A stretch of 34,414 nt of DNA, from assembly GCA_017624275.1 (NCBI GenBank), contig JAGANG010000086.1, positions 1 to 34,414 of the forward strand, written 5' to 3'. Under the pieces are notes generated by a model, which was not told the origin of the DNA, made no database searches, and was given only the letters and a program-made list of their open reading frames with translations. Numbering within the stretch: the first letter of the stretch is position 1; the number at the start of each line of letters is the position of its first letter. This document shows, piece after piece, positions 7,601-34,414 of this stretch. Made by a program: the position numbers and the translations under genes. The DNA is from Spirochaetales bacterium (GTDB lineage: Bacteria; Spirochaetota; GWE2-31-10).

Positions 7601-10379
7601 ATGAAATATAAATTAATCAATAATCATTGCGGATTACTTAATCATGAAACATCGGCATTTCAAATAATGAAAAATGAAATTAACGATGCAATAAACAAAG
7701 AAACTCCTACTGATTTTTTTCATCATTGCCAATTTTAATTTCTTTGATGCATTTAAAAAACTTTTACCGGAAATAGAAATATTAAATAATGCCGGTAAAC
7801 TCGGAAAAATTCGAATTTTAATATCTTCTGAAGAAAGCATAACTCCTAAAGATTTTCTTTTCGATTTAAGAAATGATGCTATTACTTTAGGAAAAAGTGA
7901 CTTTCAACAGATAAAGAAACTCTATAATAATAAAAAAATATCTTTCAGAATAAATTATAAAGATAAAATCAAAACACTTATGTATATCGTAAAAAACGAA
8001 AATAAATACAAAGTTTACTGCGGTAACACAAGTTTAACTTCCGAAAAAATAGGAAAAGCTCACATCAGTTTATTAACTGAAGTTACCGGAAAATCTCAAA
8101 TTAAACAAAAAAAATTCCTACTCTTTTTCAAAAAATTGTGGATGATTTCTGATACACATATTAATAATATCAGAATAATTTGTTATTTAAACGCCTATGC
8201 AAATCTTGAACTGATGCATTTGCCTCTTCGTCGTTTTATATCTTCATTTTTGAAAAAGAATAAAAAAGAATATCTGGTAAAAAATATCGGTCGCAATGAC
8301 TCACCTATCATTGATTTTCAAAATAATGCTTTTTATGCTTGCGTAGAACGAATGGAAAACTACGGAAGCGTTATGTTGTCAAATTCTATAGGTATCAGTG
8401 AAAACCGTCTTACGGCACGAGTAATAAAATTTTATTATCTGCGTAACAGAAATATTCTTATAATCGCCTCTGAAGAGCGAATTCTGATATGGAAAAAACT
8501 TTTAAAAGAAGAAGGAATGTTTAGAGACGGAATTACATTTCTTGACAGAAAAAATCTCCAATCTCCTGATTTTGACGACTCACAATATGTAGAAAACGAT
8601 TTTATCATTGTCGACGAGGCTGAATATTTCAGTACGGCAAAAGACATAAACAACAGACGTAAACATTTTCAAAAAATTCTTAATCAAAATCCGGAAGCAA
8701 AGTTAATGATGATTTCCAAAAACATCATCAATGACTCACTGCTTGATTTAGTATACATTGTAAATACTTTCATAAGAGGTAGTTACAAGAATATTCTCGA
8801 AGAAATCGGAATAAATGAAAAACTTGCCAAATTGGAAAATGATATTTTGAATAAAACGATGAATAATGATTCTATCGATACTATTCAAAACATTCTGGAT
8901 TTATTTTTGGTACAACAAGAGTTAAAACTTTTTGATTTTAATTCAACAAAAGTTTATGAAGTCGGACAAGAAGCAAATCGTCCGCAAATCATAACTGTCA
9001 AATACACATATTCTCATGAAATTTTCACAGCCATATTTGAAAATCTGTTACCGACAATCATGAATTTGAACTTCGAATATACAAAGTTAAAATTTATTAA
9101 ATACCATGATGAACCTAGTTTGATTCATTGGTACAAGTGGAAAATGTTGAGAAAAATCGATTCCAGTTTGTTTGCTTTTACTGCGACTTGTGAAAATTTC
9201 TGTGCAAAAACTCAATTCGTTTCCGGGTTGTTGCGTGGAAATAAAGACAACATGGACGAGGGATTAAAATATTTTACAAGTTATCAAATCGGTAATATTT
9301 TAAAATCATTTGAAGATACAACCTTAAAAGAAAAGAATGAAATTATAGGACGTTTAGAAGCCGATTATATTGGAACTACCAAATTATTGGAAAATATCAA
9401 CAACATAAAATACCTAGGAAACAAAGACGAAAAAATAACAGCATTGTTAAAAATAATTAACAGCGAAAACAAACCGGCTATAATTTTTTCCGAATCTGAT
9501 GACACATTAAGATATTTACAAAAACGACTACTTGAATACAGAAGCAAAAAAATCGAGGTAATTCCCGGTGAAAATGCATCGTATGACGGTGAGGATATGA
9601 TTAAAGTTGAGAATTCTGATATAGAAAAAATCTGTCAGGATTTTGAAAATGATGAAATTGAAATTCTTTTGGTAAATGACAATATTCCCGAAGAAATAAA
9701 ATTGCCCCATGCAAAAGTAATAATCAATTTCGATTTACCTAATATTCCGTTTATTCTAAGTAAAAGAATCAACAAGACAACATCTGACCCTAAAATTAAT
9801 AAGATTAAAATTTATAATTTTCAATCAGATAAACGTGTAGATAAAGAAATTGAACTATTCGAAAAAATGAATCTTGATGTTTCGGATATTATTTCTTATT
9901 TCGGGATTGATTACGTTCAATGGTGTCGTAATATTAAAAACATTACTGATATCTCAAATGACAATATTCAAACTTTGTTGCTAATGACAAAAGAATATAA
10001 AGATTTTCTAGCTAAGAAAAATATTGATGATGTGACATACAAAATGCCGCAAAAATTGCCTTATGACGATATTTCTTTGCGACAGTTTATAAAATATTTG
10101 GATATTTCTGAGGAAACTTTGAAATTGACAGAGAATAAATTTAAAAAGCCTATTTATACAATTTTAAAATCTGACCAAGAGTCTTTTTATATTATTTATC
10201 TGACATCAAGAGGACTAAAAACATACAGTAATATTCATTTCTCTGAAACTGAGGTAAATCGTGAGATTACAACGGACGAAGCAGAAAAAATTACTGATAT
10301 TATAAAAAATGAAATAAAATCTGAAAATGATTTTATAGAAGTAATAGGAATTATTGTATACACAAAAAACTCCTACTAA
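7601..10379 (+). pseudogene. PLD-SNF2 helicase-like gene, frameshifted, catalytic motifs degenerate
   Basis: A start at 7601 with AGGAGAAAG overlapping the previous stop gives MKYKLINNHCGLLNHE, then stops at 7736. The rest continues in another frame (FFDAFKKLLPEIE) without interruption to 10379. The switch is at a run of seven T (7714-7720); six T would restore one protein of about 925 aa. The N-terminus resembles a phospholipase-D-like domain (..KIKTLMYIV....VYCGNTSLT), but the HxK motif reads KxL. A SNF2-like helicase follows. Its Walker A position reads GISEN instead of GxGKT, Walker B is kept (IIVDEAEYF), and the motif VI region reads LSKRINKTT without the usual QRxGRxxR. The protein therefore looks catalytically dead or repurposed. 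hisC follows with good spacing. The open part alone is 7980-10379. Family by pattern recognition; loss of motifs is directly visible. Confidence 0.65.
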
Positions 10380-29318: not shown

Positions 29319-30194
29319 ATGAACGAAACATTGGAAGAAGTAACCAAAGCAGCAAGCAACGCCAATAAAACTTTTGCTGAACAAACAACTTCATTTGTAA
29401 GCTGGATTAAAAATTTTCTTACATGGGATAACATTTTTAAAGCTGTAGGAGCTATAATTTTAATTTTTATAATCTATTTAATTTATAGATTCATATTAAA
29501 AGCAATAAAGAAAATTCCTACAGAAAAAACGACTCCGCAACGTTCTATGGTTATGATTCGTATTGCAAAGTATTCGTTCTATATAATCGAGCTAATGTTT
29601 ATTTTAAGCTTATTCGGAATAAAACTTTCGGCTATTTGGGGAGCTGCCGGAATCGCCGGTGTTGCTATAGGTTTTGCGGCACAAACATCTGTCAGCAATC
29701 TAATCAGCGGTTTGTTCGTGATTACCGAAGGAGCTTTAAAAATCGGCGATACAATTATTGTTGACGGGATAACGGGTGTTGTGGATTCAATCAATCTGAT
29801 TTCCGTTCGTGTTCATACTTTTGACAACCAAATGGTTAGAATACCGAATTCTACTATTATAAATGCAAATCTTACCAACAATTCTTATCACGCTCAACGT
29901 CGTATTACTCTCGGTGTTTCTGTCAGTTATGATACCGACATGGCAAAAGCATTAGAAGTACTTTCAAAAGCTCCGGATTTATGTCCGACAATTTTGAAAG
30001 ATCCTGCCCCGGCTGTTTGGTTTGATGGTTTCGGTGACAGCGGTATAAATATAGTTGTAGCCGGTTGGTTTAATACTAAAGACGCATTGAAAACAAAAAA
30101 TGATTTGTATATTGCAATCAAAAAAGTTTTAGACGATGCAAAGATTGAGATTCCTTACAATCGCTTAGATGTTAAAGTTTTGGAAGAATCGTAA
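29319..30194 (+). CDS. mscS: Small-conductance mechanosensitive channel (MscS family)
   Basis: 291 aa, near the E. coli length. It opens under membrane tension to release solutes in hypo-osmotic shock. The pore helix is IWGAAGIAGVAIGFAAQTSV, followed by NLISGLFVITEGALKIGDTI and the beta domain (VRVHTFDNQMVRIPNSTIIN). Upstream are two further helices. The ATG at 29319 is set by GGAGG 6 nt before it; an in-frame start 30 bases earlier has no RBS. Monocistronic, with its own terminator. Confidence 0.92.
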   Translation: MNETLEEVTKAASNANKTFAEQTTSFVSWIKNFLTWDNIFKAVGAIILIFIIYLIYRFILKAIKKIPTEKTTPQRSMVMIRIAKYSFYIIELMFILSLFGIKLSAIWGAAGIAGVAIGFAAQTSVSNLISGLFVITEGALKIGDTIIVDGITGVVDSINLISVRVHTFDNQMVRIPNSTIINANLTNNSYHAQRRITLGVSVSYDTDMAKALEVLSKAPDLCPTILKDPAPAVWFDGFGDSGINIVVAGWFNTKDALKTKNDLYIAIKKVLDDAKIEIPYNRLDVKVLEES

Positions 30195-30217
30195 AACTTT
30201 GTTTTTCTTACTTATAG

Positions 30218-30250
30218 TCAGTCCGGATTCTTCACCGGACTGATTTTTTT
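30218..30250 (+). terminator. Rho-independent terminator of mscS
   Basis: TCAGTCCGG (30218-30226) with CCGGACTGA (30235-30243), followed by seven T. Confidence 0.92.
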
Positions 30251-30258
30251 ATAGAAAT

Positions 30259-30284
30259 TAGTGACAGCCCTATATTCTAAAATA
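30259..30284 (+). repeat. REP-like repeat, diverged left half
   Basis: TAGTGACAGCCC, TATATTC, TAAAATA follows the left half of the repeat with changes. It lies 8 bases past the mscS terminator, as the copy at 27688 does past the rnf terminator. Confidence 0.5.
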
Positions 30285-30304
30285 AAATATTATAATTAGA
30301 AATT

Positions 30305-32344
30305 TTACCTCATTTTTATTTCATGTAATTGTTCAACTAAATGGCGAGAAGCATTTGAATTTGTAGTGTCATATATCCAGTTATGATTAAAAGCCTTTAT
30401 TGTGTTTTGATTTCCAGAAGAACCAATTACCAAACTGTAAAAACAAGTATTTTTCTTTTTTTCTTCTTCAATCGAATTAACTAAATCTGTTGGTAAAGTG
30501 TCCATAACAAAATCAGAAATCATTAAAACATCAGCATTTTTATAAACATTTCTTTGAAGCATTTCCAAAGAATGTTTTAACGCTGGTGTGGCGTCAGTTC
30601 CACCGTTAAAAGATTTTCGCAAAAAAGAAACAAGCTTTCCAATAGAAGCTCCTTCAGAGAAATCACTTAAATCCAATGTTTCAATTCCTGTTGAAAATGA
30701 AATCAAATAACACTTTCGTTCTTCTTCTATTGCAATTTTTGATAAAGCAAATGTTACAGTTTTTGCAATATTTTCGGGAGTTCCCTGCATAGAACCACTT
30801 GTATCCACACAAACAATAATTGGGCCTTTAGGTTCTTTTTTTTCTACAGAAACTTCTTCTTGTTCAGTTTCTTGTTTTTTTAATTCTTCTTTTGTTCTAT
30901 AGTTATAAGAAAGAAGTTGTTTTTGGGCAAATTTCAGTTGAAATAACTTTTTTGTTGCAGGATTTCTTAACAACGCAAGTTCACTTGGCAAAACACAAGA
31001 AATATCATTGGAATATTTTAATCCGTTGATTTCACCACGATAAGCATTTTTAGGTTTCCATTCAGATTTAATAACAACTTTATCGCGTAGTTCTTTTTCA
31101 AATGTGGATTGTGCTCTACTTTGTTTTCCAAGGATTTCGGCTAATTCTTGTAAAGATTCATCATTTTCAAGCAATTTTGCAAAAGTGTCTAGAATTTCAA
31201 ATCCACTAGTTTCAAAAGTTCCTTCGCTTAAATCCCACAATCGTCCGAGATTCTTGATAAAAGGCATCAGGAGACTTTCAAGTTTCATAAACTTATAGAT
31301 TTTTGAATAAAGCTTTTCTAAGAATTCTTTTCGCATTGAATCAATCTGCGCTAGTTCCCATTTTGATTTTCTTTCAACAAGATTTTGCTCTAAATCCAAA
31401 ATGATATTTCTTTTAAGGATTTCCAGCTTATCAGCAGATTTCCATTTGAGGAATTCAATTTCGTCACCTTTTTCGTTCTTAGACTTTACCATCTTGACCT
31501 CTTTTACGAACTGATTATGATAAAAGTCAAAATTTACAGTACTTGCTTCGATAGCACCTCTTTTCGAATCACTTATAGATGGAAGCCGTTTATAGTGACA
31601 TTCCATCTTTGAAGAGTCTTTTATAAGATCACTTGCAATATCTTCTGCGGCTTGAAGTTTTTGCTGTTCAATAAAAATCGCCTCTTCTCTGAAAGGATCT
31701 TCTTTCACTAAGTATTTATTTACTTTCTCAAGCCATTCAAGAATGTCAGTCTGAATATTTTCTGAAAGTCCTGTATGCTTTCTTTCATATTCCAAAATAT
31801 TGTTTTGTGAAGAAATTTCTTTTAGAATTGAAGCTCCGAGCTCTGTGTACTTATTCTTTGGAAACTCAATTCTAACATCTTCTGGAATATTTGGATTTGT
31901 ATATTCTTCCATTGCATCAACAAACTGTTTCTTTTCAGATTCGGGACCTAATGCTGATGATGTAAGATTTTCAAAGCGACGTTTTTTCTTTGAATCTTGT
32001 CGGTAACGTTTTATATTAGTGAGCAAATCGTATTCTATCTTGGAAAGATTTGATGATACGGTTGAGAGTATTGAAGTCAGAACTGAATCAGATAAATCTT
32101 CTTCTTGATGAGCTATAGTATTCCTAGAAAGTCGCATTGATTCCCACCAAACTGGTTTGTTTGGAAAATAGACCTTTTTAATACATTCTCTGAATTGCTG
32201 AACTTTTATTTGAATTAGTGCACGAGCCTCTTCAGAGATAGAGTGAATATCTTTAATTCCATTTGGATATTTATTCATGATATCTCTAATAGGCATAAGT
32301 GCTTTATGACAATATTTTCGAGACTGTTTTTCTCTCTTCGCCAT
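30305..32344 (-). CDS. viaA: ViaA-like VWA-domain protein, partner of a RavA-type ATPase
   Basis: 679 aa, longer than E. coli ViaA (about 480). The C-terminal VWA domain (about 505-679) has an intact MIDAS: DTSGSM with D514, the Thr in FNGGTDATPAL, and the Asp in ADVLMISDFVMD. The sequence follows ViaA closely in this part (GPIIVCVDTSGSM, RKCYLISFSTGIE). The N-terminal ~90 residues contain KYPNGIKDIHSISEEARA, a segment also found in the 94-aa protein encoded directly upstream. The middle is helical and charged. ViaA is the metal-binding partner of the MoxR-family ATPase RavA; in E. coli the pair affects Fe-S respiratory enzymes and aminoglycoside sensitivity. The start lies 4 bases past the upstream stop. 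Last gene of the operon. The symbol marks family membership, not proven function. Confidence 0.85.
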   Translation of the reverse strand: MAKREKQSRKYCHKALMPIRDIMNKYPNGIKDIHSISEEARALIQIKVQQFRECIKKVYFPNKPVWWESMRLSRNTIAHQEEDLSDSVLTSILSTVSSNLSKIEYDLLTNIKRYRQDSKKKRRFENLTSSALGPESEKKQFVDAMEEYTNPNIPEDVRIEFPKNKYTELGASILKEISSQNNILEYERKHTGLSENIQTDILEWLEKVNKYLVKEDPFREEAIFIEQQKLQAAEDIASDLIKDSSKMECHYKRLPSISDSKRGAIEASTVNFDFYHNQFVKEVKMVKSKNEKGDEIEFLKWKSADKLEILKRNIILDLEQNLVERKSKWELAQIDSMRKEFLEKLYSKIYKFMKLESLLMPFIKNLGRLWDLSEGTFETSGFEILDTFAKLLENDESLQELAEILGKQSRAQSTFEKELRDKVVIKSEWKPKNAYRGEINGLKYSNDISCVLPSELALLRNPATKKLFQLKFAQKQLLSYNYRTKEELKKQETEQEEVSVEKKEPKGPIIVCVDTSGSMQGTPENIAKTVTFALSKIAIEEERKCYLISFSTGIETLDLSDFSEGASIGKLVSFLRKSFNGGTDATPALKHSLEMLQRNVYKNADVLMISDFVMDTLPTDLVNSIEEEKKKNTCFYSLVIGSSGNQNTIKAFNHNWIYDTTNSNASRHLVEQLHEIKMR

Positions 32345-32348
32345 TTTA

Positions 32349-32633
32349 TTAACCCTTTTTGTATGCTTTTATTTCATCAATATTCCTAAAAATATATGAT
32401 GCCATCTCTTGAAGTTCTTTATCTGGAATATCCTCCAAAGAATGAATCAGTCTGTTGTGTATTCTTTGGAGATTAGATACAAGCTTAAATTCTTTACAAT
32501 TCGATATAGCTTGGATTGTTATTTGTAACCAGGCTTTCTGTTCTTCAGAAAGAGCAGATACATCTGATATTCCATTAGGATACTTTTGCTGCAGGATAGA
32601 AATTCTATCCTGTATGCTAAGTTCTTTGTTCAT
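32349..32633 (-). CDS. 94-aa protein sharing the N-terminal domain of the adjacent ViaA-like protein
   Basis: Contains ILQQKYPNGISDVSALSEEQ, then AWLQITIQAISNCKEF. In the ViaA-like neighbour the matching segment is IMNKYPNGIKDIHSISEEAR, then ALIQIKVQQFRECIKKV. A second weak match is HNRLIHSLED against RNTIAHQEED. So it is a stand-alone version of that domain. It lies between the RavA-like and ViaA-like genes with gaps of 10 and 4 bases, so all three are surely co-transcribed. Predicted helical, no signal peptide, no known family. Inference: it binds the ATPase or competes with the ViaA N-terminus for it. Confidence 0.75.
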   Translation of the reverse strand: MNKELSIQDRISILQQKYPNGISDVSALSEEQKAWLQITIQAISNCKEFKLVSNLQRIHNRLIHSLEDIPDKELQEMASYIFRNIDEIKAYKKG

Positions 32634-32643
32634 ATTTCAAATC

Positions 32644-34414
32644 TCAAAATTTTCGCCAATCACGAATAACACACATAGTATACTCATGATCCTTTGTAGT
32701 GTGATCTTGGTGCCCACGGTCATCAAATGTCATGTACATTGCAGCTAACTTATCTTCAGTTTCAGAACAAGACCAATATTCTTTTCCATCAAGAATTTCA
32801 CCATTTACAGCTTTCAAAGATTCATTGATGACATCTTTGTTTTCCCAAATCTTTTGTAACAGTTCAATTTTTGGAACAATCCAGCCTTTTGAATAATCAT
32901 CTGCGACTTTAGTACTATAATCAATGCAGCACTGTTTCATCTCAGTCCATTTCTTACTGTATTGGTTTACTCCAATGGCATATTTTGATTCATCTGCAAT
33001 ACAAACAACTGCAATTACATTTTCTTTCTGTTCATCAGAAAGATTCTTTATTTCTTTTGCAGTAAAAATACTTCCATCGTTAAGGATTACATCACCAATA
33101 GATAATTCAGGTTCAAGGTCATCACTATAATAACGATCTTTTTGCTTATCCAATTCAACCTGTTTATCTTCAAGGTCTTTTATTGAGTCATCGATTTTTG
33201 AAGTAATACTTGTATTATAGCTCTGGTCTGCAAAAAGGTTTGCTTTGAATGGTACAGCGTCTTTCGCTTTTTGATCTTTTAATTTATCAATTTCACTATT
33301 AATGAAATTACTGATTGGAGTATAATTATTTTTGGTAAAAATCTTCTGTAAAGTTGAATGCGAAATATCAGCAAACTTTTTTGGTTTGACATGAGTTTTT
33401 TCTGGATTTTTATTTACTGTAAAATTCCAGTTACAAGCAATGGCATCTCCATTCTTAGAAAAATTAGCATAAGTTTGGTGTGTCTTAGCAGAATTATAAA
33501 CATCATGATGATTATTGTATGGACTATGTCTTCCTTTATCGACGGTTACATACCATATTTCCGAAGTTCCATTTCTAGTACATTCAAAACATTTCTGATT
33601 ATCGATAGTCACTATTTTGTCTGATTCTGGTTCAGTTACTTCTTCAAACCATTCTTCATCAACTTTAGCGGTAAAATCTTCAATCTGTTCCTGAATATCT
33701 TCTATAGCTGAATCACATGGAATACCATTTTCTTTAAGGCACTTCTCAACAATTTCTTTTGCCTTCTTCTGCTGTTTCTCAGTTCCCCAGATACAGTTTT
33801 CAATAAGAGAACAATCCATCAAATCAACTTCATTTCTGTCATTCAAGAAAGCAGATGTTTTAAGAATATGGGCTATTTTCTTCCAGCGGCGGTCCCCGAC
33901 TTCAAAGAGTTCTCCATTCTTTTTATCTTCTTCTGATAATTTTTCGTTTTGCAAAGTCAATTCTTTTCGGATTGCAGAAATAACATCTATTGCAGCATCT
34001 GAAAGTTTTACTTTATCAATTTGTTCTCTCCAGTTTTCTAAATCTTCATTACTAATAAGAAGATTCTTGTCATTTTCAGAAATAGTAAAATCTGTTGAAT
34101 TAGAATCATCAATCATTTCAAAGAATGAGTCTTCATTCTGAATAAAATCCACAACAAGTCGCAGAATGAATCTGTCGTAAAGTGCTTCTAATCCTTCATT
34201 TTTTGTAGGAAGTTCATTTGAAGCAGCAAACAAAGCCTTTAATGGAACATCTTCTACTTTGCCACCGTTATGAAATTTTCGCTCGTTAATAATCGTAAGC
34301 AATGTATTTTGAATGGCAGGACTTGCATTCCAAATTTCATCTAAAAATGCAATATCCGCTTGTGGCAAAAATCCATCTGTAATGCGTTTGTACTCTTCTT
34401 TCCCACTTTCGCCA
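32644..34414 (-). CDS. ravA: RavA-like MoxR AAA+ ATPase fused to a C-terminal DUF1566-like domain, 5' end outside window
   Basis: The frame is open to the window edge, so the N-terminus with Walker A is missing; the TTG at 34368 is not a start. The visible part begins YKRITDGFLPQADIAFLDEI (Walker B), continues to LLTIINERKFHNG, then sensor 1 ALFAASNELP and LEALYDRFILRLVVDFIQ. All closely follow E. coli RavA. The middle (helical, then a Trp/Tyr/His-rich segment) is unlike the E. coli LARA domain. The last ~150 residues read SIGDVILNDGSIFTAKEI, IGVNQYSKKW, KGWIVPKIELLQKIWENKDV and EYWSCSET. This pattern is usual in secreted treponemal DUF1566/FGE-like proteins. Such a fusion to a cytosolic ATPase is unexpected. 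RavA powers the RavA-ViaA system. Confidence 0.85.
   Translation of the reverse strand, partial: GESGKEEYKRITDGFLPQADIAFLDEIWNASPAIQNTLLTIINERKFHNGGKVEDVPLKALFAASNELPTKNEGLEALYDRFILRLVVDFIQNEDSFFEMIDDSNSTDFTISENDKNLLISNEDLENWREQIDKVKLSDAAIDVISAIRKELTLQNEKLSEEDKKNGELFEVGDRRWKKIAHILKTSAFLNDRNEVDLMDCSLIENCIWGTEKQQKKAKEIVEKCLKENGIPCDSAIEDIQEQIEDFTAKVDEEWFEEVTEPESDKIVTIDNQKCFECTRNGTSEIWYVTVDKGRHSPYNNHHDVYNSAKTHQTYANFSKNGDAIACNWNFTVNKNPEKTHVKPKKFADISHSTLQKIFTKNNYTPISNFINSEIDKLKDQKAKDAVPFKANLFADQSYNTSITSKIDDSIKDLEDKQVELDKQKDRYYSDDLEPELSIGDVILNDGSIFTAKEIKNLSDEQKENVIAVVCIADESKYAIGVNQYSKKWTEMKQCCIDYSTKVADDYSKGWIVPKIELLQKIWENKDVINESLKAVNGEILDGKEYWSCSETEDKLAAMYMTFDDRGHQDHTTKDHEYTMCVIRDWRKF

Follow-up and report, generated by a model that had tools for sequence, protein, structure and literature searches.

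At one end of the window (the whole 34,414-nucleotide stretch analysed here, contig JAGANG010000086.1 of the Spirochaetales bacterium assembly GCA_017624275.1), three open reading frames occupy positions 30305-34413 of the minus strand and encode, in order of transcription, a RavA-like ATPase, a small protein of 94 amino acids and a ViaA-like VWA protein (Table 1). Intergenic gaps of 10 and 4 bases separate them, confirming the operon layout proposed in an earlier note on this DNA. The contig boundary at 34,414 falls inside the ATPase gene, and any further upstream genes, such as the CARF and sigma-like genes that relatives possess there, would lie beyond it; a 779-residue database protein differs from the window ATPase at one position across the 589 common residues. 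Neither tRNA nor Rfam scans of the window returned a hit, and 12 sigma70-consensus promoters were counted in 30000-34414, below the shuffle mean of 18.1.

Table 1. Genes, domains and motifs of the three-gene operon, with coordinates in the window
Feature	Position	Strand	Remarks
RavA-like MoxR AAA+ ATPase	32644..34413	-	5' part cut off by contig end; 589 of 779 amino acids present
ATPase tip domain, exchangeable	33373..33645	-	predicted all-beta; at the position of RavA's LARA domain
ATPase C-terminal extension	32647..33108	-	weakly Lcl_C-like
Small protein, 94 amino acids	32349..32633	-	free HEPN-like domain
Motif position in free copy, HNRLIH	32442..32459	-	histidine replaces arginine of RNxxxH
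ViaA-like VWA protein, 679 amino acids	30305..32344	-	additional N-terminal HEPN-like domain
HEPN-like N-terminal domain of VWA protein, residues 1-115	32000..32344	-	
RNTIAH (RX4H) motif of fused domain	32108..32125	-	intact
VWA protein residues 309-661	30362..31420	-	ViaA profile match; MIDAS-like DTSGS, GGTD, ISD

The small protein aligns with residues 22-103 of the VWA product encoded beside it. This relationship, first noticed as a shared segment in the earlier note, was upheld by sequence comparison: BLASTP aligned the pair at 30% identity over 82 residues (E=1e-10 for the pair), the small protein as query retrieved the N-terminal part of the VWA protein from the same genome (E=1.1e-7), and a profile built from 21 small proteins retrieved it at E=1.1e-11. 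In a fold comparison of the shared module, HEPN-type chains ranked first with a moderate Z score. Furthermore, the fused copy carries the RX4-6H motif that characterizes the HEPN superfamily, with RNxxxH present in 132 of 133 VWA rows (the remaining row being a gap) and retained at all 13 loci examined, including the divergent L044-L046. The module is thus likely HEPN-like, and a predicted RNase domain. Among free copies RNxxxH occurs in only 9 of 34 rows (L036, L037, L039, L040, L041 and P0022-P0025), whereas the other 25, the window's close relatives, have histidine for the arginine, and 7 of the 34 also lack the last histidine. The window's own free copy reads HNRLIH rather than RNxxxH, although RIHNRLIH can be read as RX6H. 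At the level of sequence, the motif is constant in the fused copy and decayed in the free one.

RavA-ViaA, an MoxR AAA+ ATPase with a VWA partner, has been investigated as a chaperone in stress and respiration, and the LARA tip of RavA binds a metabolic enzyme and lipids. From Pfam and NCBIfam searches, the window ATPase was assigned a MoxR/RavA-type AAA+ domain and an AAA lid, together with a weakly matching Lcl_C tail; a RavA-type core with lid and helical arm is present, and Walker A and Walker B patterns were found in the ATPase P0028. The same searches identified the partner as a VWA protein with ViaA kinship, possessing a MIDAS-like residue set. As both proteins score below the NCBIfam cut-offs, we treat them as relatives rather than equivalogs of RavA and ViaA (258.6 bits against the ViaA equivalog cut-off of 500, and 194.9 bits against the RavA cut-off of 681, an unfair comparison for a truncated sequence). 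Searches of PDB sequences with the small protein, the ATPase tail and the VWA protein found no relative. A Treponema metagenome-assembled genome carries a VWA frame broken by a stop near its end (L003, 8125-8269), and about 90 N-terminal residues extend the ATPase (P0028 residues 1-90) in 8 of the 120 homologues listed, the same extension being a separate open reading frame in L041 (5703-5954).

The variable part of the ATPase is its tip. An all-beta domain is predicted on the helical arm at the place of LARA; because the AAA core was modelled with a predicted local distance difference test (pLDDT) score below 50 over residues 152-301, the arm and tip alone were used, the block at residues 441-540 having a pLDDT of 82-92. 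Of the 13 Pfam rows obtained for P0028 with a limit of E=5, none names a LARA family (Pfam presumably contains a LARA model), and the tip searched alone gave no named VIA match. Positions 33383-33642 have no DNA match in the related locus L035, though the flanks on both sides do. Across copies that are otherwise 73-95% identical, two tip types were found with 16-19% identity to one another. Distant homology between them was considered and rejected, and the two types are treated as unrelated by sequence, because an hhalign probability of 95.9 for whole segments fell to 2.2 once the shared flanks were trimmed; a common fold may exist all the same. Judged from these alignments, the ATPase tip is swapped between otherwise similar operon copies. 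We considered and rejected a diversity-generating retroelement that targets the lectin-like tail, as this Lcl_C-like sequence varies little (0.916 mean pairwise identity over 101 rows) and the variable part lies elsewhere; the tail is thus not a hypervariable C-type-lectin-like domain of the kind such retroelements target. At locus L038 (6527-8830) the ATPase carries two tandem copies of the second tip type, with genes for a phospholipase of the cyclic oligonucleotide-based antiphage signalling system (CBASS) type and an E2 protein close by.

To place the operon in an evolutionary context, 392 spirochaete genomes were surveyed, with up to 3 candidates per genome scored in the search for VWA relatives and up to 12 in that for the small gene. 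A full-length VWA relative was identified in 11 genomes including the window's own, counting G352 and G287, where one frame lies in two pieces, and G070, whose frame is interrupted by a single stop. Eight of these 11 also have the small gene, always immediately upstream of the VWA gene, such that the trio does stay together in most related operons, as the earlier note had asked; with this and the significant match between the two segments, neither outcome that the note named as refuting was observed. No small gene was detected in any other of the 392 genomes, and within the eight its profile matched nothing further except the VWA gene. It was not found in G152, G327 or G181, its place in G327 being taken by a free Lcl_C-like gene. 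In L043 (7726-8061), a free Lcl_C-like gene of 111 residues lies between ATPase and VWA genes, at the position of the HEPN-like gene in others. The more distant relatives in G044 and G178 consist of ATPase and VWA genes; RNxxxH is kept there, and the small gene is lacking. Viral contigs yielded no confirmed relative.

The operon is common to the window and a genome outside the window's order at 86% DNA identity, and has apparently moved between spirochaete orders. A mis-binned contig was considered and rejected: a host gene (7980-10379) shares 83% identity with its counterpart in a same-genus genome and was not found in the five family-f19 genomes searched. Counting against this rejection, the gene at 29319-30194 is slightly nearer to two f19 genomes (62 and 57%) than to the same-genus genome (56%), but both f19 values fall well short of the VWA protein's 84%.

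Upstream of the operon in relatives we identified a CARF gene and a sigma-like gene, and the matches described below come from these relatives. The order CARF, sigma-like, ATPase, small protein, VWA is seen in L003, L035, L036, L037, L039, L040 and L041, L036 and L037 having additional genes between the sigma-like gene and the ATPase; in L042 the CARF and sigma genes lie one gene away from a convergent ATPase-VWA pair. The L003 CARF protein matches the PADLOC model PDLC01820 (CARF2--CARF) over its full length (E=4.2e-84), and all four CARF proteins scanned match TIGR02221 (E from 2.9e-13 to 2.3e-8), under its cut-off; a CARF query had no match among PDB sequences. With the sigma-like profile A2, 35 of 39 PDB rows were sigma factors (SigA/SigB/RpoS; best at E=2.3e-4), the first row (2.4e-7) being an unrelated chain that lacks any passing stretch, and three of four sigma-like proteins match TIGR02937 (E from 1e-3 to 0.02), under its cut-off. 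Members of the CARF family were found in 21 of the 392 genomes, namely in 8 of 10 with a full-length VWA relative versus 13 of the 381 others (p=7e-10 by Fisher's test, a guide only because the species are related; the window genome, with no CARF in its 84%-complete assembly, was left out). In 8 of 11 further stretches around CARF genes (L052-L062, excepting L056, L058 and L061) the CARF neighbour was recognised by the sigma profile, and the genes that follow vary, a helicase in L054 for example.

Other gene sets also accompany the pair. In L052 (5399-12001) and L059 (2271-6755), VWA, PP2C and protein kinase genes stand in place of RavA-ViaA, a set which we take to resemble the TerY-P triad and in which PADLOC matched the kinase only. 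In G190 the pair lies beside Cas10-Cmr2 and a RAMP protein (L055, 2713-9086), with the RavA-type operon on another contig; dependence on Cas10 was not supported. A decayed locus from the window's own order (L049, 2816-7606) has a CARF gene less than 5 kb from a 74-residue VWA-gene remnant, and the promoter-like motif described below occurs there twice.

In the upstream regions we spotted by eye the motif TCAACT followed 16-17 bases on by CTAWTA; the following tests are not blind, as the motif was discovered in these same loci. Its strict form occurs nine times in 861 kb of loci on both strands versus once for the control, and all nine sites are in CARF loci: upstream of CARF (L003, L035, L040, L041, L049), of the ATPase (L036, L037), of the VWA remnant (L049) and, in L061, of the gene after CARF's neighbour; in L049 and L061 the sigma search did not recognise that neighbour. 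Using a weight matrix built on the five CARF-upstream sites, we matched 10 of 31 other regions at p of about 0.01 or better, comprising ATPases (L036, L037, L038, L039), CARF genes (L052, L054) and following genes (L052, L054, L059, L061). The five ATPases of L042-L046 all went unmatched, and TCAACT is missing from five CARF-upstream regions left out of the matrix test (L056, two of L057, L058 and L061). The motif is not enriched genome-wide, with 15 sites in 13 CARF genomes versus 28 for the backwards control, and 22 in 13 other genomes. Its informative feature is thus location only, since 9 of those 15 sites fall in CARF loci, although the CARF loci of G184, G152, G156, G374 and G381 contain none. 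This suggests a sigma factor mainly serving its own module, and we infer that it recognises the motif.

The reading that we favour, at about even odds, is an antiviral defence system in which a CARF-sigma switch expresses a RavA/ViaA machine gating a predicted HEPN RNase, whose partner or inhibitor would be the small protein; each functional step of this reading is one that we infer. The CARF protein would sense a cyclic oligonucleotide made in infection and free or stabilise the sigma factor, which would transcribe its own operon. Recognition of an infection-related ligand by the ATPase tip would explain its exchange between copies. ATP-driven remodelling through the VWA protein would then part the fused HEPN domain from its small partner, which likely holds the predicted RNase in check, and the freed domain would dimerise and cut RNA. 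The earlier note had proposed the small protein as an adaptor or inhibitor of the ATPase-VWA interaction; this interpretation is partly supported, as an inhibitory role, here towards the predicted RNase, forms part of our reading and the adaptor belongs to a competing explanation. More tentatively, the operon could be an inducible suicide RNase derived from RavA-ViaA: a CARF-sigma pair would serve interchangeable effector operons (RavA-HEPN-ViaA, kinase-phosphatase-VWA and others), each preceded by a promoter that the pair recognises as its own, and the RavA tip, likened to the target-recognition domain of a restriction enzyme, would be cassette-swapped between strains so that each senses a different phage signal, HEPN being freed from its dead twin.

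The operon might instead be a variant RavA-ViaA chaperone whose tip binds differing client proteins, with the HEPN-like modules as non-catalytic docking domains and the small protein as adaptor. We consider this unlikely, since docking alone would not require RNxxxH in the fused copies of every locus examined, and CARF linkage and tip exchange between similar operons suit conflict better. That the free and fused HEPN domains are equal halves of one RNase with a composite active site, and no inhibitor role, would accommodate the nine free copies retaining RNxxxH, but is doubtful given the loss of arginine, and in places of the last histidine, from the others, and given three operons that have the fused domain without a free copy. 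A mobile toxin-antitoxin (addiction) module spreading for its own sake, with no antiviral role, would agree with the 86% DNA identity across orders and the patchy distribution, yet is improbable given the same-family CARF-sigma pair beside Cas10-Cmr2 in G190 and given CARF-sigma control and exchange of one domain, which to our knowledge are not usual for such modules.

The defence reading places the operon beside several described systems. With E. coli RavA-ViaA it shares the RavA-type core with lid and arm; unlike it, the window operon has a HEPN-like domain on the VWA protein, a free HEPN-like gene and an Lcl_C-like ATPase tail, and the window and its relatives have an exchangeable domain at the LARA position, with CARF-sigma upstream in relatives. 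MoxR-vWA-VMAP ternary conflict systems are already known (Kaur et al. 2020, PMC7159879), as are CARF-linked vWA-MoxR-VMAP units (UAS-55, -64 and -66, PMC10910872). They likewise combine a MoxR ATPase and a vWA protein, include effector domains and parts that vary, and are linked to CARF; here the ATPase is RavA-like, the effector HEPN-like, and the variation an exchange of ATPase tips rather than a retroelement acting on a lectin-like domain. Pfam recognised no VMAP component on the operon proteins, some but not all neighbours also being scanned, apart from a non-significant VMAP-M14 match (E=0.043) on one small protein. In Calp (CalpL protease, CalpT anti-sigma, CalpS sigma; type III CRISPR; PMC11229360), a nucleotide-sensing domain is also coupled to a sigma factor; here CARF replaces SAVED-Lon, no anti-sigma factor was recognised, and effector genes of its own come after the sigma-like gene. 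RtcR-like regulators also tie CARF to transcription via a sigma factor, but by fusion with an NtrC-like AAA+ protein that activates through sigma-54 (PMC4012209), in place of a separate protein beside a sigma70-like one. UAS-58, which PMC10910872 lists in a single phrase as a CRISPR-linked 'two-component RNAPol + CARF' unit, may equal this CARF-sigma pair; that passage mentions neither RavA, ViaA nor HEPN.

The titles and abstracts searched yielded no HEPN with ViaA and no CARF-sigma70 pair with RavA-ViaA, and the one paper containing both 'ViaA' and 'HEPN' has HEPN only in its references. We regard the operon as an apparently undescribed variant of MoxR-vWA and CARF-linked systems. If the machine does control a toxic RNase and swap its tip, the tip would be a general recognition slot and RavA-ViaA would belong with the MoxR-vWA conflict systems, while CARF with a sigma70-like factor preceding varied effector modules would represent a transcription switch for cyclic-oligonucleotide signalling.
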